Shown piece after piece: positions 14,661 through 31,295 of a stretch of DNA of 64,000 nucleotides (within the stretch, counting starts at the first letter, position 1; every line of letters starts with the position of its first letter). The notes beneath the pieces are model-generated. The model was not told the DNA's origin. It was given only the letters and a program-made list of their open reading frames with translations, and searched no databases. The stretch comes from Calothrix anomala FACHB-343 (lineage in GTDB: Bacteria > Cyanobacteriota > Cyanobacteriia > Cyanobacteriales > Nostocaceae): positions 112,667 through 176,666 of the forward strand of contig NZ_JACJQG010000008.1 in assembly GCF_014696435.1 (NCBI RefSeq), in the 5' to 3' direction. The position numbers and the translations under genes were made by a program.

Positions 14661-14662
14661 TT

Positions 14663-14823
14663 GGGAGCATCCCAAATGTGCAAAAACGCCCTCACCCTAT
14701 AAGGGTGGGGCTAGAAATACGAAGCCTGCCTTCGCAGGCTAAAAGTTTGATAGCCTGCGAAGGCAGGCTTTGTTGGTATAGCAATACCCTTCTAGGGTAT
14801 TGCGTCACAATTGGGATGCTCCC
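14663..14823. mobile_element. 161-bp MITE-like element, copy 2
   Basis: Same 13-bp terminal repeats, length and internal nested palindromes as 11900-12060; I count two base differences. It lies in the same orientation relative to the upstream gene and begins 2 bp after the sdhA stop. No clear target duplication is visible at this copy, so it may be older or one flank may have changed. Confidence 0.85.
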
Positions 14824-15043
14824 CAGTCATTTATCAGTTTTTTGGCGATCGCATCATGAAAAATATTAGGGCTTACGCAGTGTCAGATATTTTTCATGCT
14901 TTTTGTCAATGGTCAATTGACCATTGACTTTTGACTTTTGACGAAGTTAGGTAATTTTTGTTTACTTGCACTCATACAAGGGAACTCTAGATTAAGCACC
15001 ACTAGAGCGTCTAGGAAAACTAATCTGCTACGGCTTCAAAGAT
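14824..15043. repeat. Leader of PAS kinase with GTCAA-type repeats
   Basis: The stretch holds at 14905-14942 a symmetric GTCAATGGTC/GACCATTGAC palindrome followed by two TTTTGAC units, which belong to the short heptamer repeats of this genome. The remainder up to the ATG is AT-rich leader. No gene is seen. Confidence 0.65.
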
Positions 15044-17677
15044 ATGACTCAGTTCTCTTCCAGTCACGACGAGATATCCCCAGAATCAGTATTTCTAGAA
15101 ACTGAGAGCGTAGCTAGCCTCAAGCAAGAAATCATCACTCTCCGACAGAGGGTAGCGCAGTTAGAGCAAGAGTTAGCAAATTTATGGGAATCACCATCTT
15201 TACAACAAAAAACGATACTAGAACTAGAAGCTAAGAGTTTTTTTCAGCCAGCGAGGGAAGAACACCAAGCTTTGATGACAATTCTCGAAGCTAGTGCCGA
15301 TTTTATTGGTATTGCATCAATGACAGGACAGCCTTTTTACCTCAATCCAGCAGGAATGAAGTTAGTTGGATTGCAGGATATGGAGGAAACTAAAACCAAA
15401 CATCTCAGTGATTTTATCTTACCTGAAGACATGGAACTATTTCAGGAAAGTATTTTACCAACTGTAATCCAGGAAGGTTATTGGCAAAGTGAATTTCGGT
15501 TTCGCCATCTTGTGACGGGAGAGCCAATTTTAATTGACTATACTCTGTTTTTAGTGAAAGATCCAGTTACGAATCAGCCTATAGGCTTGGCAACTATTAG
15601 CCGCGATATTCGCGATCGCAAATGCACCGAACAGCGTCTTTTAGAACAAACTCAGCTATTACAAAGTGTCTGGGAAGGCGTAGACTACGGCATTTTTGTC
15701 TTTGATGTTTTAGATAACGGTCAAGAATTCCGCTTTGTCGATTATAATCCGGCGATCGCTCGTAGCAGAACTGTAGATATGCCAAGCATCTTGGGTAAAA
15801 CTTTAGCGGAAGCGATGTCTAAGGATATGGCTGCACTTTACCGTCAACATTATGCAGAGGCTGTCCATTCCGGTACAACTAGCTTTTTTGAAGAACATTT
15901 TTGTGCTAATGGCCAAGAAACCTGGTGGTCTGTCAGTGTCACACCTTTAAAAGATAGTAGTTCGCGCATCCATCAAATTGTCGTCACCGCCACAGATATT
16001 ACAGAACGCAAACAAGCTCAAAACGCACTAGAACAACAAGAAATTCTCTACCGTACCATTTTTGAAAATGTTAGTGATGGTATCAACATCATTGATATAG
16101 AAACAGGAAAAATTGTTGTCGCTAATCATGCTATTTGTCAGATGCATGGCTATTCTCAAGAGGAATTTGTCAAACTTCAGCCGCCAGAGTTTGTCCATGA
16201 AGATACCTTACCAAGATTTGCTGAGTTTATCCGTGACATTAGAGCTGGTAATCAATTTCACGGTCAAGGATTAGATCTACACAAAGATGGCACTTTGATA
16301 GATGTTGAGGTATCAGCCAGTCCTATTTTTTACAATGGTAAAATCCATGCCTTGGGAGTCATTAGAGATATTAGTGAACGCAAGCGTTCTGAACTGGCGT
16401 TGGCTGAAAGCGAAGCCAAATTCCGCAACCTTGTAGAAAATGCCAATGATGTTATATGGACTACTTTAGTAGATAGTACTATCACTTATATATCGCCAAA
16501 ATTTCAGGAGATTTTTGGCTACGAAGTTTGCGAATGGTTAAATCAATCATTTGTACCATTGATTCACCCTGATGATTTACCGCAAGTGATGGCATTTCTC
16601 AAGCAAATTATTGAGACAGGTGAGAGTATTAATGACATAGAGTTTCGCCATCCGAAAAAAGATGGAACTTGGGGTTGGGTAACATCTAATGCCTCAATTC
16701 TCAAAGATGCTGATGGTCAAGTCATGGGATGGCAGGGGATTTTGCGAGATATTAGCGATCGCAAACAAGCAGAAATTCAACTCCAACAACAAACCCAAGA
16801 ACTAGAAAACACCTTGTACGAACTCAAACAAACCCAACTGCAAATGATTCAAAGTGAAAAAATGTCCAGTTTGGGGCAAATGGTTGCAGGTGTAGCCCAT
16901 GAAATTAATAACCCTGTTAACTTTATTCATGGTAATCTTTCTCATATTAGTGAATATACTCAAGATTTAATAAATCTCGTAGCACTATATCAACAATATT
17001 ATCCTCAACCGCCAGAAGAAATTGCCGATGTCCTCGAATCTATCGATATAGAATTTCTCATCGAAGACTTAAGTAAAGCCTTGCAATCCACGCGCATAGG
17101 AACTACGAGAATTCGAGAAATTGTGCTTTCGTTAAGGAATTTCTCGCGTTTGGATGAAGCCGAAGTTAAAGATGTAAATATTCACGATGGCATTGATAGC
17201 ACTATTATTATTCTCCACAATCGTTTAAAAGCACATTCAGAACGCCCAGAGATTCAAGTTATCAAGAAATATGGTGATTTACCGCCTGTGGAATGTCATG
17301 CAGGACAATTAAATCAGGTATTTATGAATATTCTTAGTAATGCGATTGATGCTTTAGAAGAACATAGTCAGCAACAATTGCAAACAGGAATTTCTGTTAA
17401 TTCCAGGATTATTTCAATTCACACAGAAGTAATTAATAACAATTGGGTGCAAATTTGTATCGCTGACAATGGCCCGGGAATTAAACCAGAAATTTGTCAG
17501 AAGTTATTCGATCCCTTCTTTACGACAAAGCCAGTTGGTAAAGGTACAGGCTTAGGTTTATCTATTAGTTATCAAATTATTACTGAAAAGCATGGCGGTA
17601 AATTGTGGTGTGAATCTACACCAGGACAAGGAACAAAATTTATCATTGAAATCCCCATAATTTATGTCAATAGATAA
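15044..17677 (+). CDS. Multi-PAS sensor histidine kinase
   Basis: 877 residues, no membrane segment. A coiled coil (about 22-48) precedes four PAS domains (about 76-195, 200-325, 333-452 and 460-578), each ending in a DI(R/T/S)(D/E)RK-type linker. A second coiled coil (about 580-608) leads to the histidine kinase core. His619 lies in [12 protein letters not shown], an N-box follows (NILSNAID), and the G-boxes are DNGPGI and GKGTGLGLS. Likely a cytoplasmic sensor of redox, light or a small ligand; no chromophore-binding cysteine can be assigned. The kinase core is very close to those at 1876-7467 and 34032-35099. No response regulator is adjacent, so it is an orphan kinase. Confidence 0.9.
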   Translation: MTQFSSSHDEISPESVFLETESVASLKQEIITLRQRVAQLEQELANLWESPSLQQKTILELEAKSFFQPAREEHQALMTILEASADFIGIASMTGQPFYLNPAGMKLVGLQDMEETKTKHLSDFILPEDMELFQESILPTVIQEGYWQSEFRFRHLVTGEPILIDYTLFLVKDPVTNQPIGLATISRDIRDRKCTEQRLLEQTQLLQSVWEGVDYGIFVFDVLDNGQEFRFVDYNPAIARSRTVDMPSILGKTLAEAMSKDMAALYRQHYAEAVHSGTTSFFEEHFCANGQETWWSVSVTPLKDSSSRIHQIVVTATDITERKQAQNALEQQEILYRTIFENVSDGINIIDIETGKIVVANHAICQMHGYSQEEFVKLQPPEFVHEDTLPRFAEFIRDIRAGNQFHGQGLDLHKDGTLIDVEVSASPIFYNGKIHALGVIRDISERKRSELALAESEAKFRNLVENANDVIWTTLVDSTITYISPKFQEIFGYEVCEWLNQSFVPLIHPDDLPQVMAFLKQIIETGESINDIEFRHPKKDGTWGWVTSNASILKDADGQVMGWQGILRDISDRKQAEIQLQQQTQELENTLYELKQTQLQMIQSEKMSSLGQMVAGVAHEINNPVNFIHGNLSHISEYTQDLINLVALYQQYYPQPPEEIADVLESIDIEFLIEDLSKALQSTRIGTTRIREIVLSLRNFSRLDEAEVKDVNIHDGIDSTIIILHNRLKAHSERPEIQVIKKYGDLPPVECHAGQLNQVFMNILSNAIDALEEHSQQQLQTGISVNSRIISIHTEVINNNWVQICIADNGPGIKPEICQKLFDPFFTTKPVGKGTGLGLSISYQIITEKHGGKLWCESTPGQGTKFIIEIPIIYVNR

Positions 17678-17844: not shown

Positions 17845-19224
17845 TTAAACAAAGTACTCTTTGATACGTGGTGTTAGCCCGAATAATGTCAAAAGCGCGA
17901 TCGCACTCAGCGCTACTGTAGCTTTAAGTTCAAAACCTTCGAGATCGCGAAAGCCTTGCTTGATTGCTTTGTCGAAAGCAGCTTGGTTAATATCAAAAGC
18001 TTTTTGATTAGTTGCTTTCAACTGTTCAAACGCCCAAATTGACTGTCCTGGGTTATTACCTAAGGATAAAGCGATCGCTTGTTGATGTTTGCCGCTTTTT
18101 TCTAAATCGCGAATTTGGCGATCGATTGTCAAATAAGTGCCCAAACTCGCCAGATTTGCTAATGTCGCTGCTTTTTCACCTGTAAAAACAATATTTTTCA
18201 GTTCATCAGCTAGGTAACCTGTAAACCCATCAACTTTGGCATACTCATATTTATAAGCTTCTACTACTGACTCAATAGTCTTTCCTGGCGGTACTTGGGC
18301 AATTTGAGCGATATTTTGTCCAAAAGCTTGTTCGTGGCTGCTAGCAAAAGCTGTATCAAGTAAATAGCGACTTTTGGCAGTATTAGCGATATAGGCGATC
18401 GCTCTAGCTTGGCGTAAGGTATGCATAGAAGTAAAAGCGTCTTCTGTCGCTACTCTCAGGTTTTGGGAAGCTGATAACAACGCGCCAGCAGTATAATTTA
18501 ACAAGCCAAGTGCGATCGCAGTAGCTAATAACAGCGCTGGATTAAAAGTGCGACGCATCCGTTGGCTGAGAAATATTTGTAGCCAACCCAGTAAAACAAT
18601 CAGTGCTAAACCAATTAAGAAAATAGAAAATATATAATTTTGTGTGGCAACTTTTTTTTGAGTGTAAGTAGCGTCTAAAGCTTGCAGATTTACCTTATCT
18701 AACTCATCGGCTGCGGGGAGAAGGGTTTTATCCATGATTTCGCTAGCAGCACGATAAGCAATCAGCATGGCATTATTATCCCCACGGGCGTGAGAATCTC
18801 TCGCTTGCTGGATTTTAGCTAAGTAGTTACCTAAAGCCAATTGCATAGTTTCAATTTGTTTGCGTTCTATATCTCCAAATGAGATACTTTCAGCCGCAGC
18901 TACTAACCTTTCCGTAACTCTTAAATATCGTTCTTCGTAACCTTTAATAGCATCTTGGTTTTGTCCCGTTGGTACTAACAATTCGTTCACAACATTAGCA
19001 TCCATCCCCGCCAGCCCATCTTTTAGGCGTTGCGCTGTGACGATACTGGGGGTGGAATCTTGTCCTACAGTTTTAATCGCCTGTCTTTGCGCCTGCACTC
19101 CGCTAATAATACTAATTAGTAGTAAGACGCTGGATATCCAGGTTAGATATAAACCACTTTTGAGCAATTGCGGCGTCGTCAGTCCGCGAATAGCTTTATT
19201 TGAAACTGCAATAATTTTACTCAT
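17845..19224 (-). CDS. GlnX-like four-TM receptor of the PknG cluster
   Basis: 459 residues from the ATG at 19224; the frame extends further upstream only through GGGGCAT repeat sequence, so I reject a longer start. Four membrane helices are predicted (about 22-44, 197-218, 229-250 and 435-452), leaving two large, alpha-helical outside domains (about 45-195 and 252-433). This layout is that of GlnX, the membrane partner of PknG in mycobacteria, and resembles four-helix-bundle sensor domains. The assignment as GlnX-like rests on topology plus linkage to the PknG gene, not on recognised sequence motifs. It is the last gene of the minus-strand cluster, 49 bp after the FHA gene, the spacer being filled with GGGGCAT repeats. 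Probably senses an external solute or envelope state. Confidence 0.65.
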   Translation of the reverse strand: MSKIIAVSNKAIRGLTTPQLLKSGLYLTWISSVLLLISIISGVQAQRQAIKTVGQDSTPSIVTAQRLKDGLAGMDANVVNELLVPTGQNQDAIKGYEERYLRVTERLVAAAESISFGDIERKQIETMQLALGNYLAKIQQARDSHARGDNNAMLIAYRAASEIMDKTLLPAADELDKVNLQALDATYTQKKVATQNYIFSIFLIGLALIVLLGWLQIFLSQRMRRTFNPALLLATAIALGLLNYTAGALLSASQNLRVATEDAFTSMHTLRQARAIAYIANTAKSRYLLDTAFASSHEQAFGQNIAQIAQVPPGKTIESVVEAYKYEYAKVDGFTGYLADELKNIVFTGEKAATLANLASLGTYLTIDRQIRDLEKSGKHQQAIALSLGNNPGQSIWAFEQLKATNQKAFDINQAAFDKAIKQGFRDLEGFELKATVALSAIALLTLFGLTPRIKEYFV

Positions 19225-19230
19225 ATTGGG

Positions 19231-19261
19231 TATGGGGCATGGGGCATGGGGCATGGGGCAT
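19231..19261. repeat. GGGGCAT heptamer array, 4 copies
   Basis: Four tandem GGGGCAT units between the FHA and GlnX-like genes. They can be read through as codons for Met-Pro-His-Ala, which produces a false N-terminal extension of the downstream gene. Confidence 0.85.
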
Positions 19262-19273
19262 TTGTGACTTATT

Positions 19274-19933
19274 TCAGCGAATTGCTGCGATCGCAATTCT
19301 TGTCCAATGTCCTAAAGTGAATTCATCGCCATCTTGTAGAGAAATATCTACCATTGGTTTTAACTCTACGCCTTTGAATTGCGTACCGTTAGAAGAACCA
19401 ATATCGCGCAGGGTGAATGTACCATCTGCTTGACGGTTTAATAAAGCATGGCGGTGAGAAACTGCGCCGTCAAAATCTAGAGCAATTTCTGGATGAATGG
19501 CTCTAGCTTGACTATTGCGACCGATAAGGTTAGTTTCCTTTTCTAATGGAAAAACTATCGGCGCTTGTGCTGTTGGGGGTTCTGGACTTTCGGGATGACG
19601 CAGAGATGGATCGATTGTCACTACCAATTGCCAACCAATAATCGGGGATGGGGGAGTAGAAACAGATGCTTGTTTTTGTGTTACCTTTTCTTCTTGGGGA
19701 ATTTTAGCGATCGCTAATTCTCCATGTGCTTGAGTAACAAAGTTATAACCACAAATCTCGCAATAGTCCCCACTGTCAACCTCGTGAGGCGCACTACAAG
19801 CTGGACAGGTTTCAATATTTACTGTTGTTTTAGCTATTTTTGGTTCAGCTATACCGAGAATTTTGGCACCACACTCCGAACAAAAATCTGATTCTGTGGA
19901 TTCGTGACCTTTAGGACATTGATATATAGGCAT
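19274..19933 (-). CDS. Zinc-ribbon FHA-domain protein
   Basis: 219 residues from ATG 19933 (an in-frame TTG two codons earlier is less likely). There are two N-terminal zinc ribbons: CPKGH with FCSECG (about 6-24) and CPACS with YCEICG (about 42-65). A linker leads to a C-terminal FHA domain (about 130-219) with the phosphopeptide-binding signature GR, SHRH and DIGSSNGT. FHA domains bind phosphothreonine. In actinobacteria the FHA protein GarA/OdhI is the substrate of PknG, so this protein is the natural candidate effector of the neighbouring kinase. The ETTS phosphorylation motif of GarA is not present. Mid-cluster, between the VWA and GlnX-like genes. Confidence 0.85.
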   Translation of the reverse strand: MPIYQCPKGHESTESDFCSECGAKILGIAEPKIAKTTVNIETCPACSAPHEVDSGDYCEICGYNFVTQAHGELAIAKIPQEEKVTQKQASVSTPPSPIIGWQLVVTIDPSLRHPESPEPPTAQAPIVFPLEKETNLIGRNSQARAIHPEIALDFDGAVSHRHALLNRQADGTFTLRDIGSSNGTQFKGVELKPMVDISLQDGDEFTLGHWTRIAIAAIR

Positions 19934-19939
19934 GGTCAA

Positions 19940-20067
19940 TAGTCATTAGTCATTTGTCAATAGAGACGCGATTAATCGCGTCTGTACAATAATCATTTAT
20001 CATTTGTGACTTATTTGTTTCTGTTCCTTCTGCCTTCTGCCTCCTGCCCTCTGCCTTTTTTCACTCA
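19940..20067. repeat. Spacer with palindrome and heptamer-like repeats
   Basis: Within the PknG cluster. Contains GTCATTAGTCATTTGTCA repeats, a perfect palindrome of AGACGCGATT and AATCGCGTCT (19964-19983), and pyrimidine-rich CTTCTGCC units (about 20025-20058). A related palindrome, GAGACGCGAT/ATCGCGTCTC, lies in the next spacer upstream (about 22487-22509). Confidence 0.75.
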
Positions 20068-21345
20068 CTAAGACTTAGGAATGCGAGTAGTTTTTGTAGA
20101 ACGAGTTTCTAATGCCATCGCGTCTTCCTTGGCTACATCTCGCTTTAACCGCACTGTACCTGTAGGTGCATCTTCCACATCAACAACAGTTTTGAGCAGT
20201 TTGGCTGTGGCTTCATTCCCAGATTCATGAGCTAATTTCACAGCTTTACCTAATTTGGCGGTAGCAACTTCAATATCGCCCTTAGCACGAGCTTCTAATC
20301 CTTCTTGAATTGATTGCGCTAGTTCTGCTTGTCCGGTATAGTGCGCAACTCGCTTATTAATTTTGGTAGATTTGGCTTCGTCATCTGTCCAAGTTGCCAA
20401 AATTCGGGCTTCTGCAACTTTTGTTTCTACACCATTAACGGTGTAAACTAAGCTGGCGCGACCAGCTAACATTTCATCACCCACATTACCGGCATTAACT
20501 TCGATGCAAAAGTGGTAATCGCGGGACTCATCCCTACCCCAAGCACCAGTAGGATATTCCAACATCTGTGGTTTAACTGCTTTACCACGCTGTGTTAAAT
20601 CAACAATATCTGGACTCACCTGTTTGCAAAATAGTACCTTAGCTCCTTGGGGCGTCCACAAACGCATAGTGACATCGCTGACATTCTTACTCATAGCTTT
20701 TGCTAAAATTGCCTGAAAATCAGCTTCAATCATTGCCGCATCGGGAATAATATCAGTCGTTCCCAGCAGTTTCCCAGCGATTTGTTGGAGTTGAGCAACC
20801 CGCCAATCAGTCCCCACACCCCGGCAATCGCACTGAAATACACCCTCACATTGCTGTAAAATCTTCTGCAGTGCTTGCTCATCTGTATCATCATTCATGC
20901 CATCGGTGAGTAGTAAAGCTTGGCGCACAGCATCGGGTTTCTTGTTAAACTGTGCCAGCGCTTCAGTTAACCACTTAGACATGAGCGTACCACCATTAGC
21001 CAGGATTCTTTTAATTGCGGCGATCGCTTCTTCTTTCTTTTCAGGTGTAGCTTTAGACACCGGGAAAACTACACTCGCTTTACTAGAACCCGTGACAATA
21101 AAAAAGTAAGCATCCTCTGGTAACAAACTCACAACTTTTACCATTGCATCCTTAGCAGCGTGAATTTTACCGCCGCCCATTGAACCAGAGACATCACAGA
21201 TAATACCAAAAAGTCTGTCATTACCAGTAGAAACGGGTACACCATCACCCTTTTCCACGCTGACAGTCATGATCGCATGAACTTCTTTAGCACCTTCGTG
21301 TAAATATTGGTTTTGAAAAACTTCCGCTTTGAATTGGTTTGACAT
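20068..21345 (-). CDS. VWA-domain protein of the PknG cluster
   Basis: 425 residues. A von Willebrand A domain spans about 43-230 with an intact MIDAS metal site: DVSGS (Asp51, Ser53, Ser55), the Thr in GGTLMS, and the Asp in LLTDGMND. The rest (about 240-425) contains a beta-rich part followed by a helical segment rich in Lys and Ala (about 335-390). VWA domains form metal-dependent protein contacts, so a scaffold or adaptor role in the kinase-phosphatase-FHA set is likely. No signal peptide, so cytoplasmic. Lies between the PP2C and FHA genes with spacers of about 140 bp. Confidence 0.85.
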   Translation of the reverse strand: MSNQFKAEVFQNQYLHEGAKEVHAIMTVSVEKGDGVPVSTGNDRLFGIICDVSGSMGGGKIHAAKDAMVKVVSLLPEDAYFFIVTGSSKASVVFPVSKATPEKKEEAIAAIKRILANGGTLMSKWLTEALAQFNKKPDAVRQALLLTDGMNDDTDEQALQKILQQCEGVFQCDCRGVGTDWRVAQLQQIAGKLLGTTDIIPDAAMIEADFQAILAKAMSKNVSDVTMRLWTPQGAKVLFCKQVSPDIVDLTQRGKAVKPQMLEYPTGAWGRDESRDYHFCIEVNAGNVGDEMLAGRASLVYTVNGVETKVAEARILATWTDDEAKSTKINKRVAHYTGQAELAQSIQEGLEARAKGDIEVATAKLGKAVKLAHESGNEATAKLLKTVVDVEDAPTGTVRLKRDVAKEDAMALETRSTKTTRIPKS

Positions 21346-21491
21346 ATTAGGGGCTAGGGGTTAGGAGCTAGTGGTTTATCGCCAAAATTTTGATGAGTTT
21401 ACTCATTCTTAATATTTCTTCTTTTCTTTCTTCATTTTCTTCTTCGTGTACTTCGCGTCTTCGCGGTTCGTTTTTTACACCATAATTGAGC
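21346..21491. repeat. Spacer with GGGGCTA-type and CTTC-rich repeats
   Basis: 146 bp in the PknG cluster. Contains GGGGCTA-type heptamers next to the VWA start (about 21350-21372) and a CTTCTTTTC/CTTCG-rich stretch (about 21415-21470). No gene is seen; a stem-loop or processing site is possible but not evident. Confidence 0.6.
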
Positions 21492-22451
21492 TTATAACGC
21501 CAAAACAGCCACCGTAATATTGTCATGTCCGCCACCTTGCCGCGCAAACTCCACCAAACTCCGAGATACACTCATCGCATCTTTACCAGGCGATCGCGCT
21601 ACTAACTGAGCTAATTCCTCAGCTTTTGGAGCATAATTCCATAATCCATCACTACATAAAAGCAAATATCCCGACTCAGGAATCGTAAAATTGACTATTG
21701 AAGGTGTAGCATCCGCAACTGCATCTGCTCCTAGCCAGCGAGTAATCGCATGAGCTTGAGGAGATTTTCTCGCTTCAGCTTCGCTCATTTCTCCTGCGGC
21801 TACCACCTCATATAACCAGGAATCATCCCGAGTTAATTGTTGGGAAGCCTTACCAGAAATCCAATAAGCACGGCTGTCACCTAACCAACCAATAGTAACG
21901 GTACGGTTATATACAATCGCAGCCACAATAGTAGTTGATGGTGGATCGGAATTTACACCAGATATACAAGGAATATTACATACAGAATCGAGCGCCGCAG
22001 CAAAGGCGGATTTAATCGCTAACTCTGGTTTTTCTCCACTTTGCCAAACATGAGCTAATTTCCCAGCCGCAGTTTCAGCAGCATTACGAGCCGCTAAATC
22101 TGGTTGTTCCGCGCTAGAAACACCATCGCAAACTACGAGAATATTTACCTGGGAGTCATTAATCTGGTGTAGAGCCAAAAAATCTTCATTGCGGTGATGT
22201 CTCAAACCGCGATCGCTCACTCCCGCTAACTGTGAATTAATAATTATTTCGATGCGATCGCTCTTTTTGGCTTCCCTGCGAAATCCGCAATTACTACAGT
22301 AACCATCAGTATCAATGGCTTCTATTCCCGCACCGCATTTTTCACAGCCTTGTGTATTTGTTGGCGGTTTACTAGCGGTTAAAGGCGTACCGCATTCCTC
22401 ACAAAATTTGTCCCCTACTAGGACTGAAGCACCACATTTTGGGCATTGCAT
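21492..22451 (-). CDS. Zinc-ribbon PP2C-type protein phosphatase
   Basis: 319 residues from ATG 22451; the longer frame begins inside GGGCATT repeats. Two zinc ribbons come first: CPKCG with FCEECG (about 3-22) and CEKCG with YCSNCG (about 35-60). A PP2C catalytic domain follows (about 80-319), with metal-binding and core motifs SDRGLRHHRNED, VCDGVSS, GWLGDSRAY, CSDGLW and HDN. It should dephosphorylate Ser/Thr-phosphorylated proteins using two Mn/Mg ions. Next to the PknG-type kinase (75 bp downstream of it), it is the obvious opposing enzyme. The ribbon TDGYCSNCG closely matches EDGYCNVCG in the kinase. Confidence 0.9.
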   Translation of the reverse strand: MQCPKCGASVLVGDKFCEECGTPLTASKPPTNTQGCEKCGAGIEAIDTDGYCSNCGFRREAKKSDRIEIIINSQLAGVSDRGLRHHRNEDFLALHQINDSQVNILVVCDGVSSAEQPDLAARNAAETAAGKLAHVWQSGEKPELAIKSAFAAALDSVCNIPCISGVNSDPPSTTIVAAIVYNRTVTIGWLGDSRAYWISGKASQQLTRDDSWLYEVVAAGEMSEAEARKSPQAHAITRWLGADAVADATPSIVNFTIPESGYLLLCSDGLWNYAPKAEELAQLVARSPGKDAMSVSRSLVEFARQGGGHDNITVAVLAL

Positions 22452-22526
22452 AATTATTATTGGGCATTGGGCATTGGGCATTGGGCGGAGACGCGATGAA
22501 TCGCGTCTCTACAATTGTCTGCTGAC
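22452..22526. repeat. Spacer with GGGCATT repeats and palindrome
   Basis: About three GGGCATT units (22461-22486) followed by a palindrome of GAGACGCGAT and ATCGCGTCTC separated by GA (about 22487-22509). It lies between the PknG-type and PP2C genes. Its translation gives a false N-terminal extension of the phosphatase. Confidence 0.8.
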
Positions 22527-24704
22527 TTAAATGAAAGTCCTTGGGCGTATGCGGTTGGCTTGATCAACTAAGTGGATTTTCTCTTTACCTGTAGCTAGGT
22601 GTGCCATGTCTCGCAAGGCTTTTTCTAGTCCTTGGCGCAGATGTTTTTCTTGCAGGGGTTGTCCTAAAATCTTCATACTAGGAGTAACTTTTAATTGCTT
22701 TGAGGTGAGTAAATTTAAGGCTGTTTCTAGAACTTGTTGAATGAGCCGATAGCGATCCATTCCTTCTAAAGTTAGGGTTTCAATCGCAGAGGAAGCTGTT
22801 TGTAGTTCTTGAAAACTGGGAATATCGCGATCGCGGTTGATTAAAGTCCGAGCAATTTCGACTCGCGATCGCATAAATAAACTAGAACTTGGCGGTACTC
22901 TTCCTAAAGCGGCGACTGCTCCTTGGCGATCGCCTGTTGCTGACAAACAACGGGCTAAACCAAAGGCTGCTGTCACATAGCTGGGATCTGTACGGATAAC
23001 TAACTCGTACATCTTAATTGCTAGTTGATAATTTTGCGCCTGTTCTGCGGCTAAACCTAGCGCCAATTTGGGTGCTAACTCTCCCGGTAAGTCAAAATAA
23101 ACTTGATCGAAAGCTTTTTGCGCGGCTTGTGCTTGATTGTGCGCCATTAAAGCCCGCCCCCGATACCAAAAAATGCGCCAATCCCACGGATCTTTAGCTT
23201 CGAGTTTGGCTAAGGTTTGCTCTGCTTCGGCAAAATTCAACCCCTCAATCAAGCTATTGGCTAACCGCAGTAATGCTTCGCGGGAATCAGGAAATTGCTT
23301 GACGACTTCATCTAAACTCATTGCCCGTTTCATCGGATCGGCGATCGCGCTAGCATTTAGCACAGCATTAAATCCAGGATCGTTAGCATCTAAGATTGGT
23401 AACGGTAATTGTTCATAATCTGGTTTAATTGGCTCCAAACTACCACCGTAAGTCAGCGCTAGCATATCTCCCCCTAACACATGACTAGCAGCTGGACGAG
23501 GAATATTAGTTTCCAGGGCGACAACTTCCCGCAGTACACCCAATAATTGATCCGCCATTTCATCGGCTGATTGAAAGCGATCGTCAGGATTTTCCGCAGT
23601 GGCTTTAATTAAGAAGCGATACAGAGATTCTTGTTGCCCAAATAACGGTTCTTCTTCAGGACTGGGTAATGTATACAGGTGTTCTTTACTAAAGCCTTTA
23701 ATATTAGTCAGCAATACTGCCAAAGTTCTGCCAACAGTAAATAAATCGGATACGACTGTCGGCCCTTCACCTGCTTCTGGGGCGCTATAACCTACTGTAC
23801 CGTAAATATCGCCATCTAAATCCTCAATTCGGCGCACGCCACCCAAGTCAATTAACTTCACATCGCCGCCTTCAACCATAATATTGTCTGGTTTGAAGTC
23901 GCAATATACCATGCCTAAAGAATGTAAATAAGCAAAAGCACTGAGAATGCGGTGAATATAAGCGATCGCTTCCGCTACAGGTAAAGGCCCCCGACTTTTA
24001 CGAATTTCCTTGAGAGTTTTACCGCCAACATATTCCATGACAATAAAACCCTCAGTACCGTGATTCACAAAGTTGTAAATTCCTACGATATTGGCGTGTT
24101 TTACGGCTGCGAGGAATTGTCTTTCGGCTACAGCTACGGCTGCACTAGCTGCATCTTCTGTATTCAGAAGTCCTTTTAAAACGACATAGCGAGAGAGAGT
24201 TTTATCGAAACCTAAATAAATCCAGCCTAAACCACCATAAGCGATCGCACCTTTAACTTCATATTGTCCGACAACCAAATCCCCAGGATTCAGACTAGGA
24301 ATAAACGAATATTTCTGTCCGCACTTGCTACAAAATCCCTTTTCCCGGCGCAACTGGTGATTGCAATTACTACAAAAACGCTTATTCTCTGGCACCATTG
24401 GGTTAAGCAGAATCGCCTTTTCTGGATCGGTGGAAGGTAATTCTGGTACAGAGATTAACCCAGCACCTAATTGTCTGCGACTACTGCGAGCAGAAGTGCC
24501 ACTAGTACGCCGCGAACCCTTAGAACGGTTAGTTAACGGCGAAGAACCCGTACCCGTAGTCACCGGAGAACTTCTCGCAGTAACATTTACACTTTGCTTT
24601 TGGCTGACAGGGGCAGATTTTACCGCCGCCAACCCACAGACATTACAGTAACCATCTTCAATCATGCCAGTACAGGCATTTCTCGTACAGCGATCGCCGT
24701 TCAT
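22527..24704 (-). CDS. pknG: PknG-type Ser/Thr protein kinase with zinc ribbons and TPR
   Basis: 725 residues with the full PknG architecture. A first zinc ribbon (Cys6, Cys11, Cys20, Cys23) is followed by a Ser/Thr/Arg-rich disordered linker (about 30-85). Then come a rubredoxin-like ribbon (Cys111, Cys114, Cys125, Cys128), a kinase domain (about 148-400) and a TPR region (about 455-725). The kinase has AYGGLGWIYL as glycine loop, ERQFLA for the helix C glutamate, CDFKPDN (268-274), IDLGGVRRI and GPTVVSDLFTVGR. The last two are PknG hallmarks. In actinobacteria PknG phosphorylates the FHA protein GarA/OdhI and so controls 2-oxoglutarate use. The neighbours here (PP2C, VWA, FHA, GlnX-like) fit such a pathway. 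It differs from mycobacterial PknG by the extra first ribbon. Start ATG 24704. Confidence 0.92.
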   Translation of the reverse strand: MNGDRCTRNACTGMIEDGYCNVCGLAAVKSAPVSQKQSVNVTARSSPVTTGTGSSPLTNRSKGSRRTSGTSARSSRRQLGAGLISVPELPSTDPEKAILLNPMVPENKRFCSNCNHQLRREKGFCSKCGQKYSFIPSLNPGDLVVGQYEVKGAIAYGGLGWIYLGFDKTLSRYVVLKGLLNTEDAASAAVAVAERQFLAAVKHANIVGIYNFVNHGTEGFIVMEYVGGKTLKEIRKSRGPLPVAEAIAYIHRILSAFAYLHSLGMVYCDFKPDNIMVEGGDVKLIDLGGVRRIEDLDGDIYGTVGYSAPEAGEGPTVVSDLFTVGRTLAVLLTNIKGFSKEHLYTLPSPEEEPLFGQQESLYRFLIKATAENPDDRFQSADEMADQLLGVLREVVALETNIPRPAASHVLGGDMLALTYGGSLEPIKPDYEQLPLPILDANDPGFNAVLNASAIADPMKRAMSLDEVVKQFPDSREALLRLANSLIEGLNFAEAEQTLAKLEAKDPWDWRIFWYRGRALMAHNQAQAAQKAFDQVYFDLPGELAPKLALGLAAEQAQNYQLAIKMYELVIRTDPSYVTAAFGLARCLSATGDRQGAVAALGRVPPSSSLFMRSRVEIARTLINRDRDIPSFQELQTASSAIETLTLEGMDRYRLIQQVLETALNLLTSKQLKVTPSMKILGQPLQEKHLRQGLEKALRDMAHLATGKEKIHLVDQANRIRPRTFI

Positions 24705-24716
24705 TTAGGTCTCCTA

Positions 24717-24747
24717 GTCATTTGTCATTTGTCATTTGTCATTTGTG
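24717..24747. repeat. GTCATTT heptamer array, 4 copies
   Basis: Four tandem GTCATTT units ending 13 bp upstream of the pknG start codon, and so possibly in its 5' leader. The same heptamer occurs at about 47952-47975. Confidence 0.88.
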
Positions 24748-24767
24748 AAGAGATAAGGGTGAAATTT

Positions 24768-24998
24768 CGAGATAAAAAGCTCAACTTCCGAGATAAAAGG
24801 CTCAACTTCCGAGATAAAAGGCTCAACTTCCGAGATAAAAGGTGCAACGTTCGAGATAAAAGGCTCAACTTCCGAGATAAAAGCTTCAACGTTCGAGATA
24901 AAAGGCTCAACCTTCGAGATAAAAGGCTCAACCTTCGAGATAAAAGGCTCAACTTCCGAGATAAAAGGTGCAACATTCGAGATAAAAGCCTCAACAGC
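24768..24998. repeat. 21-bp minisatellite, 11 units
   Basis: Eleven head-to-tail units of exactly 21 bp, consensus CGAGATAAAAGGCTCAACTTC on the plus strand, with variation confined mostly to the last ten bases (GTGCAACGT, CTCAACCTT and others). Because the unit is divisible by three and has no stop in several frames, both strands read as heptad-like peptides (for example VEPFISK on the minus strand). Composition and mutually exclusive frames argue against coding. It lies within the transcribed direction of the PknG cluster. Confidence 0.93.
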
Positions 24999-25087
24999 CA
25001 TCATCAATTCATTACCCACCTTCTCCCCCTTGTCTCCCTTGTCCTCCTTGTCCCCTTTGCCTCCTTCCACGCCCCATGCCCCATGCC

Positions 25088-26329
25088 CTATGCCCTATTC
25101 CCCATACCCCAATTCAACCGCTTCTCATACTGAGAGACTAACTCAGCCGCCTTATCTAAAGCCGTGGGGCGCGTGTATAAAATTTGCTTTGCTTGTGCAG
25201 CTATATCGGATAGTTTGCCATCTTCAATTAATCCTTTAGCTAATGCTTTAGCTTGGAGAGCATCTAAACGTCCTCGTAACTCCTGACGATTGGCTAAAAG
25301 GGCGCTATTAGCAGTAAATACTTGTTGTTCTGATGCTATGTAAGCTTGCGCTTTATCGATCCAATTCTCTAAACCGATGATAACTGGATTGACTAACCCC
25401 TCCGCTAGCTTAGTTTCTAACCTAGTTAACCATTGAGTCAGGGCATTTAACTCCTCAGGCGTCAATGAAGGCGATTTGATTAAATACCCCACGATTTTCT
25501 CCTGAGTTTCCGCAAAAGTAACTAGAGAATTTGCCTGGATTGTAGTTAATTTTTCTAACAAATCGCGAGCGATCGCCAATCTTGCGCGAATTTGACGTTG
25601 CTGTTTCAGTGCTTGTTCAACAACTGACTTTACTTTTACCAACATCGGCTGAATTTGTTGTTCAACCTCCACCCTCACCCCTAGAGGATCTTCTTCTACT
25701 CTTTGACGCAAAGATGCGATCGCAGTTTGAATTTGTACCAGTTCATCAATCACTTGACTATCTAAGAATTCTGCTGAGTTTTGCAGTGCGTAAATTTGCG
25801 ATTCTGCATCTGCCAAAATGTTATCTAGATGATTCCAAGCCTCATCCACAGCTAAAACAGCATCCCTAGCCACAGAAAAAGCGTGAGTCATCACTTGTAA
25901 TAACTCCCCAGGTGCGATCGCATTTACTGTATGAGTAGCACTCAGCAATTCTCTTTGTGCAAGCGGCGTATGTACTGCTGGTAAATCAATGGAAGCACCT
26001 ATCAACAGTTGTTTAATCTCATCAATCTTGTCTGCGCTGGCTAAAAATCGTGGTAATTGCTGACGTAACTTACTCGCCTTCTCCACCACCTGCACTAATA
26101 AGTCGAAATATTGAAACAAATCATTCATCGCCTCCAGTGCCGGAGTCACCCTTATCGCCGTAATTCCCGCCAAACTTAGCTGAGGATAGCCAGAATAACC
26201 ACAAAGCCTTTGATATGTAGACTGTTCTTGTAATTCCAGGAGATTTTGGCTAGCCGCATTAATTTTCTGCTGCCAATCAGCCAAAAGTTGGTCGATTTCA
26301 TCTATCACAGCGCAGACTCCCGTATTCAA
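25088..26329 (-). CDS. Long alpha-helical protein heading the PknG cluster
   Basis: 413 residues, family not recognised. Almost entirely helical, rich in Leu, Ala, Gln and Glu, with coiled-coil stretches (about 160-280 and 300-390), no signal peptide and no membrane helix. It is first in the minus-strand gene order (helical protein, PknG, PP2C, VWA, FHA, GlnX-like), which suggests an adaptor or effector of the same set, although a 383-bp repeat spacer separates it from pknG. The last few residues (WGMGNRA) are encoded by GGGGCAT-type repeat sequence, so the original C-terminus may have been changed. The start may instead lie a few codons downstream of ATG 26329. Confidence 0.65.
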   Translation of the reverse strand: MNTGVCAVIDEIDQLLADWQQKINAASQNLLELQEQSTYQRLCGYSGYPQLSLAGITAIRVTPALEAMNDLFQYFDLLVQVVEKASKLRQQLPRFLASADKIDEIKQLLIGASIDLPAVHTPLAQRELLSATHTVNAIAPGELLQVMTHAFSVARDAVLAVDEAWNHLDNILADAESQIYALQNSAEFLDSQVIDELVQIQTAIASLRQRVEEDPLGVRVEVEQQIQPMLVKVKSVVEQALKQQRQIRARLAIARDLLEKLTTIQANSLVTFAETQEKIVGYLIKSPSLTPEELNALTQWLTRLETKLAEGLVNPVIIGLENWIDKAQAYIASEQQVFTANSALLANRQELRGRLDALQAKALAKGLIEDGKLSDIAAQAKQILYTRPTALDKAAELVSQYEKRLNWGMGNRA

Positions 26330-26677
26330 GAAACTGTTGCACTCAAGAGCGATCGCTATCTGCTCACAAAGTATTATCTGTACTTTTGCTTTATAACAAC
26401 CATTGGTTAACGAAAGTTGAAGATTTTTACCTTTCCTGAGAATTACCGCCTCCCTTGCTAGAAATGCACCTAATGATTTTGAGATATATAGAACCTCAAA
26501 AAACCTCAGCGTACCTTCGCGCCAACCTCAGCGTACCTTTGCGTTAAAAAAATAAATTTCCTCCTCCCAAGCCAGAGTAGAACAAACCCTGCCTTCAAAG
26601 TTCGGTTTCACCAACCCTCCCAAAATCAACAACCCGATAAATTAATAAATAAATCAACCGCAATTGAAGTAAAAAAC
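26330..26677. other. Divergent intergenic region
   Basis: 348 bp between the helical protein and the DUF760 gene, so probably the promoters of both. It contains a direct repeat of CCTCAGCGTACCTT (about 26504-26540) of a kind common in cyanobacterial intergenic DNA. No other structure is seen. Confidence 0.5.
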
Positions 26678-27031
26678 ATGAGTAACCTTTCCCCTCGCCA
26701 GCCAGATTACTTTGAATCGCCAACCCAAAACAATAACTTGTTGCAATACATACAATCATTAAATCCCCAAACAGTTGCTCAACTTTCTCGACCCACATCA
26801 CCCGAAGTATTGCGTTTAATTCAACGCGCCATTGTAGAAATGTTAGGTAATTTACCCAATGACAAATATCAGTCCTTAATTACCACCAGCCGCGAAGAAC
26901 TAGGTAGACTCTTAGGTTCCGCAATGGTAGACGGTTATTTCCTCCGCAACGTCGAACAACGCCTAGAAATGGAAAAAACATTACAACTTACAGGTATTAC
27001 CTCCACAGAACCTGACAGCCATAATGCTTAA
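26678..27031 (+). CDS. DUF760 family protein
   Basis: 117 residues, the usual size for this family, which is found in cyanobacteria and in plant chloroplasts. Conserved features are an N-terminal LLQYIQSLNPQTV segment (about 21-33) and a helical core with SREELGRLLGSAMVDGYFLR (about 68-87). Soluble, no signal peptide. In plants DUF760 proteins are linked to chloroplast protein turnover; the bacterial role is unknown. Single gene, convergent with pilQ. Confidence 0.85.
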   Translation: MSNLSPRQPDYFESPTQNNNLLQYIQSLNPQTVAQLSRPTSPEVLRLIQRAIVEMLGNLPNDKYQSLITTSREELGRLLGSAMVDGYFLRNVEQRLEMEKTLQLTGITSTEPDSHNA

Positions 27032-27072
27032 ATTATTATTACCTTCCTCACTCAAAACCCAAAAAATAAATA

Positions 27073-27102
27073 GAGATGAGAGACCAATAAATCTCTCATC
27101 TC
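27073..27102 (-). terminator. Hairpin terminator at end of pil operon
   Basis: Perfect 11-bp arms GAGATGAGAGA and TCTCTCATCTC with an 8-nt loop, between convergent DUF760 and pilQ. On the minus strand a T-rich run (TATTTATTTTTT) follows, so it best fits the pilQ transcript. It may act in both directions. Confidence 0.6.
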
Positions 27103-27189
27103 CCTAATCCCAAAATCTCTAAAATTCGTCAACAAATTCTCACCAGCCTCCGTAATTACGAATTACGCATTACGAATTACGAATTAACA

Positions 27190-29616
27190 TTATCGCTTAT
27201 TAGAAGGTTGCCAACCGCGACGTTCCAACAATTGTCGCACCTCTGGACTGGGATTATAGTTATAGCCATAAGATGAGCGTTCTGAATCATCCATAATTTG
27301 AGGTGTCAGCATCACAATCACCTCTCTACGTTCATTACTTCTGTTAGTTCTTCTAAACAGCGAACCAATTAAAGGTAAGTCACCTAAGATAGGAATCTTA
27401 GAAACACTAGTTCTATCTTGGTCTTGAATAATACCTGAGAGAATCAGCGTTTGACCATCTCGCAAGCGAATCATCCCAGAAGTCAAAGAGCGTTCAGATA
27501 CTAAAATGATTTGGCCATTTCCTGTATTTTCAGCAGCGGTAGGTGCGCTGACAGTAGGAGCAACCGAGAGAGAAACAAAACCATTGTCATCAATACGTTC
27601 AATTTTTACATTCAACGTCAGACCAACTTTTTGTTTATCTATTGTTCTCTCAGTTCTTGAGCCGCCTGAAGTATCCGTTGTTTGAATAGTTATGTTCCCC
27701 ACAACTTCCTGAGTTAGATTGACAAGTGCTTGCTGACCTTCTTGCACAATTAAAGTTGGGTCAGTCAAAATCTTGGCATTACCATTTGTCACCTGAGCTT
27801 GCAAACTAGCAAGTAAACGTTTGGGGAATTGGTACAAAGACGGAAGAGCTGTTGTAACTGTACCAAGAGTACCCCGTGCGACACTTGTTGTTCCATCAGC
27901 ATTCCGCGTTACAACGGTATCAGTAGCTGGAGTGATATTAGAGAAACCTGGTTGTAGCGGATTGGTACTACTCGGAGCAATAGGTTGATAAAAGGTTCCA
28001 CTTCCAGGGTTTTGGGTTCTCGTGGTTGTACCATCTGGATTCACTACTATAGTACCTGGGGTAGTCCCAGGAATACTGATACCGCTATTAGGATCAATAA
28101 AAGGTGTTCCTGAAACAGGGTTAGTAATAACTGGAGTTTCACTTACACTTCTTGATGCTTCAGTAGCGCTAGCAGGTCTAGAGCCACCAAAATTGAAAGA
28201 TGCTGCACCACCATCCACAGCAAAGAAGTTGTTCCCTGCACCAAAAGAAAAGCTCGTGTTGTAATCCTGCGTCCCTGTGAGATTCACATCCACAATTTTG
28301 ACATTAACCACCACTTGACGACGGCGGATATCAAGCTGAGTTAATTGCGCCATCGCAATATCAATCAGCCTCGGAGAACCAATCAAGGTAATAGAATTAG
28401 TGCGCTCGTCTCCTAAGGCCTGTAAACCTCTTAGTAATGGATTAGAGTCTTTAAAATCAACTCTTTGAGTTTCTAATTTAGTTTCTGTAGTCGTCTGAGT
28501 TTGGGTAACTGCGGCGGCTGAATTACCTACAGGAACAGCACTGACACTAGTAACCAATCGTTCACGGCTAATGGCACTTTCTGCACCCATACCGACTAAA
28601 AAGTTGAGCGCCACACCCACTGTTACCTGATTCAGACGCAGACTACGCATCACGGTGTCACGGGTAGAAGTAGGCAGCTTTGACCCTACAAAAATAGTCC
28701 GCCCACTCCGATTAGCCTCTAAACCACTCAAACGCAAGACGTAATTAAACACATCTTGAACAGGTTCGTTTTCTATATCTAAAGAGATGGTTTGAGAAAT
28801 AGCTTGTCCACCGGCATTAGTACCGCCACCTGCGCCTTCTCCACCTATATAGGCGAGGTTTAAACCAGCGGCGCGAGCTAGTAGTGACAACACCTCCCGC
28901 ACTGGTGCATCTCTAAGTACTAACCGCGGGACACGTTCTTGAGTAGCTAGGTCAATCGTACTGGGAGAAGCATCAGTATTAGAGATAGCAATATCTCCTA
29001 CTGGTGGAGCCACAGCTCTAGGTAAGAAAGGCGGCCCTTGATATACAGGTTGACCAGGGCCAGCTGGTTGTGCAGGCTTCCCATCAATCGTCACTTCCGG
29101 ATTGGGGACTAGAACACCTGACGGTTGACCTGGTTGGGATGGGGTAGTAGTAGATGGTGTAGTCGATGGTGGAGTTGCTGCTGGTGTTGGTGTTGACGCT
29201 GTCGTACCAGCAGCAGGGCTAAAGCTAAGAGTAATACCATTATCTTTTCGCACTACAGGCTGATTGCTAGGGGTATTATTGCTTCCAGTTACCACCACCC
29301 GGACGCTATTAGCATCAAGCTGAATAATTTCGACGGAGGCAATTCCCGAAGTGGGGTTATCTTTACGGAAATTATTGCCTTGTGGTAAACGTAGTTGAGT
29401 ATTAATAATATCTGTAACTAGAGCTTTACCTCTTTTTGTTGTGAAAATTTGTGGGCGCGAACCTGAGGAGGTTTTTAAAACGACATTAATTCCGCCATCA
29501 ACTGGATTTAGCTGTACATCAGTAATCTGACTAATATCTGCCCAAACCGGTTGAGCCGCCAAGAAGATAAATGCGGCAGTGCCCAATAATAAATTATTAC
29601 CGTGAAGCTGTTTCAC
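27190..29616 (-). CDS. pilQ: Type IV pilus secretin PilQ
   Basis: 808 residues. A signal peptide (about 1-27), an AMIN domain (about 30-130) that binds cell-wall glycan, a Pro/Thr/Ser-rich linker (about 135-215), secretin N-domains (about 235-345) and the C-terminal secretin barrel domain (about 600-775), with IPILGDLPLIGSLF and VMLTPQI signatures. It forms the outer-membrane pore through which type IV pili pass, used for motility and DNA uptake. An insertion of about 120 residues rich in Thr, Pro and Gly (about 470-590) precedes the secretin core. Last gene of pilMNOQ; there is no pilP, which is usual in cyanobacteria. Confidence 0.95.
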   Translation of the reverse strand: MKQLHGNNLLLGTAAFIFLAAQPVWADISQITDVQLNPVDGGINVVLKTSSGSRPQIFTTKRGKALVTDIINTQLRLPQGNNFRKDNPTSGIASVEIIQLDANSVRVVVTGSNNTPSNQPVVRKDNGITLSFSPAAGTTASTPTPAATPPSTTPSTTTPSQPGQPSGVLVPNPEVTIDGKPAQPAGPGQPVYQGPPFLPRAVAPPVGDIAISNTDASPSTIDLATQERVPRLVLRDAPVREVLSLLARAAGLNLAYIGGEGAGGGTNAGGQAISQTISLDIENEPVQDVFNYVLRLSGLEANRSGRTIFVGSKLPTSTRDTVMRSLRLNQVTVGVALNFLVGMGAESAISRERLVTSVSAVPVGNSAAAVTQTQTTTETKLETQRVDFKDSNPLLRGLQALGDERTNSITLIGSPRLIDIAMAQLTQLDIRRRQVVVNVKIVDVNLTGTQDYNTSFSFGAGNNFFAVDGGAASFNFGGSRPASATEASRSVSETPVITNPVSGTPFIDPNSGISIPGTTPGTIVVNPDGTTTRTQNPGSGTFYQPIAPSSTNPLQPGFSNITPATDTVVTRNADGTTSVARGTLGTVTTALPSLYQFPKRLLASLQAQVTNGNAKILTDPTLIVQEGQQALVNLTQEVVGNITIQTTDTSGGSRTERTIDKQKVGLTLNVKIERIDDNGFVSLSVAPTVSAPTAAENTGNGQIILVSERSLTSGMIRLRDGQTLILSGIIQDQDRTSVSKIPILGDLPLIGSLFRRTNRSNERREVIVMLTPQIMDDSERSSYGYNYNPSPEVRQLLERRGWQPSNKR

Positions 29617-29750
29617 AGTTCATTCCTCACCTAATAAAACCTTGTTGACAAATAATTTTTGAGTAGGTATATTTCAACCTGTTTTACCCATAAAAGGTTG
29701 ACGGGCTGGGGATTAGGGTTATTTCCTGGCTTTTTTGTGACTAATTGCTG

Positions 29751-30524: not shown

Positions 30525-31291
30525 TTGGCAATGACTCCTGTTTGTTGCATACTACGAATTCGTGCCACCAATCCTACTGTGCCTTTCTGCTCCAGTTCTC
30601 GGATTAATTCCGAGGCGGGAACATCGCTCAAGCTTGATTGAATAGTGTATTTAACCACTCGAAGCGGCGGAATTTTTTTACCCTCTTTAGCATTAACAGC
30701 TGCTGGTTGTACTGGTGCATCCACTAAATCTGCTGTCACAATTTTGCTTTCTGAGGACTTTAAAAATCTCGACTGTTGCAAACTGAGCAAGAAATCATTG
30801 ACATCGTTGAAAGAGCGTGCCATTCCTACAATTTCTATGCCACCAGCCGGATTACCTGCTGGTTGACCTGCTACTGGGGCTGTAGATGCTATTTGCTTGA
30901 TGTTTTCAATTTGCACTTTAGCTGGAATGCGATCGCGCAAATCTTGTAACATAGCTGACCAAGGGCGAATTTGGTCAAACACTGACACTAAAGCTTGTGT
31001 CTCTCCTTTAACTTTGTTAGTCTCTTCTTTAATTTTGTTAATATTTCCAATTTCTGTGTCTAACTTCTTGTTTTCCTCATCTAGTTGTGCTATTTTTTGC
31101 TCTGACTCCACCACTTTCGCTTGTAACCACCACAAACCACCTACCGCCGCAGCAGGGAAGCAAATGCCTAATGCTACTCCCACATATAACGGTGTTAAAT
31201 TCCCAGTCGGGAATTTAATTCCAGGTTTTTTACTGGTATTTTTTTGGTAATTTGGGCGGTCTTTGAGAAAGTTAATATCCAGACTGTACAT
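30521..31291 (-). CDS. pilN: Type IV pilus assembly protein PilN
   Basis: 256 residues. A short cytoplasmic N-terminus with the conserved INFL motif (residues 6-9) that binds PilM, one membrane helix (about 37-57), a coiled coil (about 58-95), then a ferredoxin-like periplasmic domain. It overlaps pilO by 4 bp and starts 4 bp after pilM, so the three genes are tightly coupled. Confidence 0.94.
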   Translation of the reverse strand: MYSLDINFLKDRPNYQKNTSKKPGIKFPTGNLTPLYVGVALGICFPAAAVGGLWWLQAKVVESEQKIAQLDEENKKLDTEIGNINKIKEETNKVKGETQALVSVFDQIRPWSAMLQDLRDRIPAKVQIENIKQIASTAPVAGQPAGNPAGGIEIVGMARSFNDVNDFLLSLQQSRFLKSSESKIVTADLVDAPVQPAAVNAKEGKKIPPLRVVKYTIQSSLSDVPASELIRELEQKGTVGLVARIRSMQQTGVIAK

Positions 31292-31295
31292 TCTG

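Follow-up and report, generated by a model that had tools for sequence, protein, structure and literature searches.

A conserved six-gene module with a PknG-type kinase, a GlnX-family membrane protein and VWA, FHA and PP2C proteins in Calothrix anomala, and its possible likeness to the archaeal ArnA/ArnB switch

Two described systems come closest to the locus considered here. In actinobacteria, the glnX-glnH-pknG operon is conserved (Bhattacharyya et al. 2018, PMC6069109), and the proteins it encodes serve an amino-acid/2-oxoglutarate route (PMC9769921, PMC6069109). In Sulfolobus, the archaellum regulators ArnA and ArnB, which act with ArnC/ArnD and PP2A, form a nutrient-dependent complex: ArnA is a zinc-finger FHA protein whose finger contacts unphosphorylated ArnB, and whose FHA domain binds the phosphorylated C-terminal domain of ArnB (PMC6509490, Hoffmann et al. 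2019; PMC12852372, a structure paper of 2026). Our locus lies in a 64,000-nucleotide stretch of the genome of the cyanobacterium Calothrix anomala FACHB-343, which in its entirety we call the window. On its minus strand, positions 17845-26329 hold six open reading frames (ORFs) of one cluster, which in transcription order encode HX (413 residues), a PknG-type Ser/Thr kinase (725), a PP2C-family phosphatase (329), a VWA protein (425), an FHA protein (221) and a GlnX-family membrane protein (459, counted from the likely ATG). That these six proteins form a conserved module is, judged from sequence comparison, well supported. Whether the cluster is also a Ser/Thr phosphorylation switch that is complete in itself and takes its input from a membrane receptor, and thus a bacterial counterpart of ArnA/ArnB, is a question on which we consider the balance to be even.

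The kinase was used to collect related loci from a collection with one genome per species. The scan was based on short conserved peptides, which favours close relatives, and the best 80 of 82 were kept; it gave 76 loci, of which the 61 with a real PknG (L034-L094) were retained. The other 15 (L095-L109) contain generic kinases scoring 37-79 bits and were dropped before the count of 61, and the genome of one of them, L107, carries the module elsewhere (L128). By record title 46 of the 61 loci are cyanobacterial, and the tallies given here are uncorrected for relatedness. All six genes are co-directional in 34 of the 61. The order is that of the window in 31 of these, PP2C-VWA-FHA-GlnX-HX-PknG in two, and VWA-FHA-GlnX-HX-PknG-PP2C in one; the three orders are rotations of each other. 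Synteny of the six genes in other cyanobacteria, one of the checks on which the initial annotation of this locus had staked its interpretation, was looked for and exists. The six proteins also have closely correlated distance matrices (r 0.84-0.96 over 31 rows, i.e., the window and 30 loci passing length filters), and none of 500 permutations reaches any of the 15 values. Among the loci that differ in detail from this arrangement are two of note: in Desmonostoc (L074, 9767-16123) there is no PP2C match between PknG and VWA, and in L048 (13299-14933) three genes are inserted between PP2C and VWA, namely a ParA-like ATPase, an unassigned ORF and a weak Mrr_cat-like match below cut-off.

Presence and absence were also compared across whole genomes. 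Among 244 cyanobacteria, PknG_rubred, full-length GlnX (>200 bits) and full-length VWA (>460 bits) occur together in five genomes, and the remaining 239 showed none of the three. One family accounts for four of these genomes, and four of the five GlnX proteins exceed the curated cut-off, the exception being G035 (220 and 201 bits). In this last genome two GlnX and two VWA copies lie on contigs C130 and C444, suggesting that the module is present in two copies. Eighteen further cyanobacteria have VWA matches of ∼107-111 bits that cover only the VWA region, and weak NF058618 matches (∼19-37 bits) in cyanobacteria, actinobacteria and Acidobacteriota are partial; neither set was counted. The number of first-look candidates scored per genome was limited (e.g., up to 22 for cyanobacterial PknG_rubred, 13 for actinobacterial GlnX and 7 for cyanobacterial VWA), and the absences therefore hold at that sensitivity. 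The VWA protein is found in all 27 genomes picked for the kinase or the whole module (G030, G101, G127 and G035, and the 23 from which chosen loci came), at no less than 448 bits in 26 and at 213.9 bits in G246, and full-length GlnX is found in 20 of the 23. Of 149 Acidobacteriota, solely the chosen centre passes the cut-offs. Taken together, these tallies depict a module that is patchy but coherent. Its range includes cyanobacteria, Acidobacteriota, Trinickia, actinobacteria, and metagenome-assembled genomes (MAGs), one each of Isosphaeraceae and Dormibacterota and several of Bacillota. A number of the loci come from MAGs; binning errors do not, however, account for every copy outside the cyanobacteria, since Granulicella rosea (L069) and Trinickia fusca (L086), both isolates, carry the module as well.

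The module appears to end with these six genes. When ORFs of at least 100 residues around them were clustered, no further family recurred widely. As candidates for a seventh gene there were only two small clusters on the same strand, each with six members, the others being antisense to the six genes by coordinates; one is a histidine-kinase-like ORF near close relatives of the window, and the other an acetyltransferase-like ORF in L038, L040, L044, L053, L081 and L088. A type VI secretion kinase cascade was also considered, and was dropped because no recurring further family would fit it.

Domains were called with Pfam and NCBIfam profiles at curated cut-offs. The kinase (22527-24704, minus strand, as are all features of the cluster) consists of an N-terminal zinc ribbon, a Ser/Thr-rich linker, a rubredoxin domain, the kinase domain and a TPR domain. 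The last three are in the order that defines the PknG family, all above cut-off (PknG_rubred PF16919, 69.2 bits; Pkinase PF00069, 113 bits; PknG_TPR PF16918, 229 bits), and residues 77-723 align with the solved PknG 2pzi (E 1.3e-137). The PknG motifs on which the initial annotation relied are present, CDFKPDN and IDLGG by motif scan and GPTVVSDLFTVGR in the ORF translation. Its placement of PP2C, VWA and FHA proteins on the same strand was likewise borne out by the Pfam and NCBIfam profiles (PP2C; VWA_3 and VWA_3_C; FHA, 50.4 bits). The phosphatase (21492-22481) has the metal-site motifs RNED, CDG, SDG and GGHDN, and, like those of the kinase, its catalytic motifs are in place; the FHA protein (19274-19939) has the FHA core residues.

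What the initial annotation did not include are the further zinc ribbons. The extra one in the kinase (residues 6-24, 24633-24689, from a motif scan) is separate from the rubredoxin, and the phosphatase and the FHA protein each begin with a double ribbon. A single motif finds a ribbon near the start of 46/46 FHA, 46/47 PP2C and 58/61 PknG proteins. In the window FHA protein the Pfam DZR profile stays below its cut-off (20.3 vs 27.3), though the ribbon motif is present in all 46 members of the family. The basic, Ser/Thr-rich linker of the kinase (approximately residues 43-78, 24471-24578) is a candidate for autophosphorylation and FHA docking, by extension from the literature on actinobacterial PknG.

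The VWA protein (20068-21345) has an intact metal ion-dependent adhesion site (MIDAS), whose residues D51, S53, S55, T120 and D148 are invariant in 27/27 aligned rows (drawn from 48 VWA proteins, L094 being left out), followed by a C-terminal VWA_3_C domain. It matches the structure 4FX5 end to end (354.5 bits; 513.6 bits for the VWA profile). According to PMC6509490, 4FX5 shares with vWA2, a paralogue of ArnB, a tripartite fold of VWA, beta-sandwich and C-terminal helix bundle; for the window protein, the beta-sandwich and helix bundle are putative, by homology to 4FX5 and this published comparison. Its conserved C-terminal tail (residues 396-425, 20071-20160; GTVRLK...LETRSTKTTR) ends in T-x-T-x-R and is a candidate phospho-acceptor. 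T419 and R421 are invariant in the 27 rows, and T417 is S or T in 25 of them. The tail also occurs in 4FX5 and in L141, and is missing from the L094 protein, which lies outside the alignment.

HX (25088-26329) is predicted to be soluble. From the look of its sequence it is probably helical, and its C terminus has the form ELRGRLxALxAKA. No Pfam or NCBIfam family matches it above cut-off, a hydropathy scan finds no segment of transmembrane strength, and homologues are present in 49 of the 61 PknG loci. A profile search of solved structures gave prefoldin beta as the best match (E 1.9e-4) and then mostly coiled-coil segments, e.g., of viral spikes. We read these matches as composition rather than kinship, and a known fold was not assigned.

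The GlnX-family protein (17845-19224) has four transmembrane helices enclosing two large extracytoplasmic regions (hydropathy peaks at 25-43, 201-219, 231-249 and 433-451), in agreement with the topology given in the initial annotation. The kinship with GlnX that had been guessed from this topology also holds by sequence. The NCBIfam GlnX subfamily model NF058618 matches with 291.9 bits (cut-off 250) over profile positions 2-412 of 413, and a profile-profile comparison (hhalign) of 12 cyanobacterial with 6 actinobacterial GlnX proteins gives a probability of 99.8 and E 2.7e-29 over 383 columns. The conserved C-terminal motif GxxxRxxEY is common to the cyanobacterial and actinobacterial sequences. 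The GlnX equivalog model NF041460, on the other hand, reaches 41.4 bits against a cut-off of 780, compared to 841.9 bits for L143, a glnX-glnH-pknG locus. By these profile matches the protein is a member of the GlnX family and is not a GlnX of the mycobacterial type. For GlnX of C. glutamicum, the published AlphaFold model reportedly consists of three four-helix bundles.

The arrangement of a zinc-ribbon FHA protein next to a VWA protein of the 4FX5 type is what recalls Sulfolobus. Both systems include a zinc-finger FHA protein, a VWA protein (for the window one the tripartite fold is putative, by way of 4FX5), a kinase and a phosphatase. With its FHA domain above cut-off and its ribbon motif, the window FHA protein has the zinc finger and FHA combination of ArnA, and in this it resembles archaeal ArnA more than GarA/OdhI. 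The two systems differ in that Sulfolobus uses other kinases and another phosphatase, in the lack of a sequence match between the C-terminal domains, and in the receptor, since the accessible text of the Sulfolobus papers contains none of GlnX type. On this basis the following switch can be pictured. The GlnX-family protein would sense an extracytoplasmic signal, either directly or via an unlinked binding protein, and would control PknG through the PknG TPR domain. Active PknG would phosphorylate the VWA protein at its C-terminal helical region and tail, and itself at the Ser/Thr-rich linker. The FHA protein would rest loosely on the VWA hub via its ribbon, and its FHA domain would lock on once the threonines are phosphorylated, as with ArnA and ArnB. 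PP2C would reset the switch, and HX would be a helical adaptor coupled to PknG. The similar N-terminal ribbons of kinase, phosphatase and reader may dock all three on the VWA hub.

Ribbon docking leads to an expectation, namely that the ribbon should go when the VWA protein goes. The extra ribbon motif is present in 60 of 62 PknG proteins (the window and L034-L094), and also in L128, L140 and L141; the two exceptions are Frankia L089, with a degenerate ribbon, and L093, which is cut at its start. It is absent from all four actinobacterial PknG proteins from genomes that have no full-length VWA, where the rubredoxin CxxC pair alone is kept, and this absence fits the expectation.

Several observations weigh against the picture of an obligatory six-part module that works in the manner of ArnA/ArnB. 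In 27 of the 61 loci at least one gene is missing from the fetched stretch; many of these stop at a contig end, and in some the genes really do lie apart. HX is not seen in Dormibacterota L084, nor PP2C in Bacillota L087. In three Chamaesiphon genomes PknG, GlnX and VWA are each on separate contigs. In favour of the module, genes scattered in this way are still found within the same genome. The three of the 23 genomes that have PknG and VWA without full-length GlnX are all Propionibacteriaceae MAGs, so that GlnX may be a dispensable part. Between the VWA profile and the C-terminal domain of the archaeal-type chain 8s05 there is no alignment, and outside the VWA domain the link to ArnB thus depends on fold and not on sequence. 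The finger of ArnA is a single one of RanBP2 type, whereas the window FHA protein has a double ribbon. The conservation of the VWA tail could be structural, given that it comes 15th in a ranking of 414 twelve-residue segments and that the adjoining helical region is approximately equally conserved. The four PknG proteins without the extra ribbon are close kin, and the association of ribbon and VWA may therefore rest on one loss.

The actinobacterial pathway itself can be placed with respect to the module. The two have in common the homologous kinase, the GlnX-family receptor, the neighbouring position of their genes and an FHA protein in the system. They differ in that for the window no GlnH or E1o target was found and the FHA protein is not GarA/OdhI; the window in addition has the PP2C, VWA and HX genes and the extra N-terminal PknG ribbon. 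Of 119 actinobacterial genomes, seven have GlnX over cut-off, and full-length VWA occurs in three of these seven and in none of the other 112. In L141 the genes stand in one row, glnX-glnH-HX-pknG-pp2c-vwa-fha, and L140 has the same seven-gene row with a partial HX match of 61 bits. All six proteins are represented in this row, in an order that is a rotation of that of the window, the difference being GlnH between GlnX and HX; no description of the seven-gene cluster turned up in a literature search that covered the accessible main text of papers, with figures and supplements outside its scope. The third genome, Frankia G262, has the parts of the module spread over several contigs, and its several GlnX-like genes (L126, L127 and L147) include one flanked by two GlnH-like binding proteins. 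In the other four (L143-L146) only glnX-glnH-pknG is seen, VWA being absent genome-wide and HX, PP2C and FHA absent within the 16-18 kb fetched.

A quick tree of PknG (49 rows, 41 of the 61 loci, midpoint-drawn) has the cyanobacteria as one clade of 30 rows, with the Acidobacteriota adjoining and the Dormibacterota joining the actinobacteria. L143-L146 are nested in one branch among neighbours that keep the output half (PP2C, VWA and zinc-ribbon FHA) in the locus or genome, namely L128, L140, L141, Frankia and Propionibacteriaceae. A more careful tree of VWA (36 rows, midpoint-drawn, with long-branch warnings) recovers the main groups of the PknG tree, except for the planctomycete L090, which joins the actinobacterial side (98/92) and whose place in the PknG tree is unsettled. 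GlnH stands beside GlnX in nine loci (L084, L126, L128, L140, L141 and L143-L146), all from Dormibacterota or actinobacteria. It does not do so at the Frankia GlnX-like loci L127 and L147, and there is no match at E 1e-4 in the 40 other kinase-scan loci with GlnX, a number of which stop shortly past that gene. Most simply read, the form with six genes is the old one, GlnH came in within a single branch, and loss of genes gave the glnX-glnH-pknG form; this is parsimony on midpoint-drawn trees, whose rooting is not proven. With L143-L146 nested inside the actinobacterial branch, the textbook GlnH-GlnX-PknG pathway looks like a reduced form. As a tentative proposal, to which we assign somewhat less than an even chance, PknG connects an input half (GlnX, in time joined by GlnH) with an output half, both of them detachable; the pathway of mycobacteria and corynebacteria would be a relic in which the same input half is kept, the output half is lost along with the docking ribbon, and GarA/OdhI stands in as the substrate; and the complete form would be ArnA/ArnB-like and receptor-coupled.

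The initial annotation had instead suggested a possible tie to 2-oxoglutarate, a reading in which amino acids would be sensed by GlnX, and the FHA protein, phosphorylated by PknG, would control a 2-oxoglutarate enzyme. The homology of GlnX and PknG, and the route that their homologues serve in actinobacteria (PMC9769921 and PMC6069109), speak for this. The part of that interpretation that stands is a conserved GlnX-PknG-FHA route that comes with a phosphatase and a VWA protein of its own. The tie to 2-oxoglutarate and control of the OdhI type are not supported. The E1o C-terminal domain PF16870 has no match in the genome, where the same search was positive in 6 of 14 control genomes. GlnH, already missed from the cluster by the initial annotation, has no orthologue among the genome's five matches (the best with 53.1 bits over 132 residues, none on the window contig), and GlnH was seen beside GlnX only in the Dormibacterota/actinobacterial group. 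The FHA protein scores 30.8 bits against the OdhI model NF041660 (cut-off 200). The N-terminal ETT phospho-motif of GarA/OdhI, which we take to be captured by the pattern [DE]TT[ST], is absent from all 46 FHA proteins of the family, as had been noted for the window protein. There is no NtcA-like GTA-N8-TAC box within 21915-31345, and thus none upstream of HX or pknG; three such boxes are located within coding sequence of the cluster (17854, 21227 and 21901). In the window as a whole these boxes are commoner than chance (19 vs 10.6 expected; 1 of 100 shuffles reaches 19). Some nitrogen role of the module may still exist, but nothing was found to support one and the case for it is weak; the 2-oxoglutarate reading as a whole we consider very unlikely.

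A role in stress or defence of the Ter type is the most serious rival, because the combination of VWA, PP2C and ribbon kinase recalls the TerY-P triad (as defined in PMC11090510) and because a gene for TelA (PF05816, toxic anion resistance) lies immediately upstream of that for VWA in Trinickia L086 (TelA at 3984-5204) and the Bacillota MAG L087 (TelA at 786-1997). The cluster would then be kin to the triad but coupled to a receptor, and its output would go to stress of the envelope or from metals or phages. The same three activities are encoded together in both, the module is patchily distributed, and the phosphatase has one weak PADLOC match (PDC-M21C, 26.6 bits). In the window, however, the ribbon is at the N-terminal rather than the C-terminal end of the kinase, whose C terminus is a TPR domain; the VWA protein matches VWA_3, VWA_3_C and 4FX5; FHA and GlnX are added; and no nuclease, Ter or other effector family recurs widely, TelA being confined to L086 and L087. 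PADLOC gives no match at E 1e-5 for VWA, FHA, GlnX or HX and a generic kinase for PknG, and the cluster does not qualify as a known anti-phage system, which would involve PADLOC models for several components. The single clade of cyanobacterial copies is as expected under mainly vertical descent. The position of the ribbon is an argument against plain TerY-P membership, as is the lack of any effector that recurs widely, and on the whole we regard a Ter-like role as unlikely. A further alternative alters only the target of the reader: the FHA protein would bind autophosphorylated PknG, the VWA protein would be a separate MIDAS-dependent adaptor, and its tail would be structural. The Ser/Thr-rich linker does adjoin the rubredoxin, and the N-terminal segment of actinobacterial PknG governs the choice of FHA substrate (PMC8546545). 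But this arrangement leaves both the VWA protein in 27/27 genomes and its conserved tail unexplained, and it too seems improbable to us.

The surroundings of the cluster contain repeats and genes of other kinds. Between HX and pknG there is a tandem array of 11 copies of a 21-bp unit (24765-24995), and several 7-bp arrays are found at other gene borders (17688, 19228, 20026, 22459, 24717, 25067 and 27154). Just upstream on the same strand are a secretin gene with an AMIN domain and a PilO-like gene (27190-30524); a link to these pilus genes was dropped, as such families do not recur among the module loci. Beyond the 3' end of glnX, on the opposite strand (12933-17677), are a succinate dehydrogenase/fumarate reductase flavoprotein and a multi-PAS histidine kinase.

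PknG has been mentioned in Calothrix and Ktedonobacter (Lisa et al. 2021, PMC8546545), and a literature search, with subscription papers, figures and supplements outside its scope, found no description of PknG, GlnX, VWA, PP2C and FHA as one module. If the reading proposed here is true, a much-studied bacterial kinase pathway would be the trimmed descendant of a wider signalling module, and VWA, FHA, PP2C and HX would be named as probable native partners of PknG. The likeness also suggests that the archaeal ArnA/ArnB switch would have a counterpart in bacteria whose membrane sensor is of a type already known, and the crystal structure 4FX5 would gain a function to chase.

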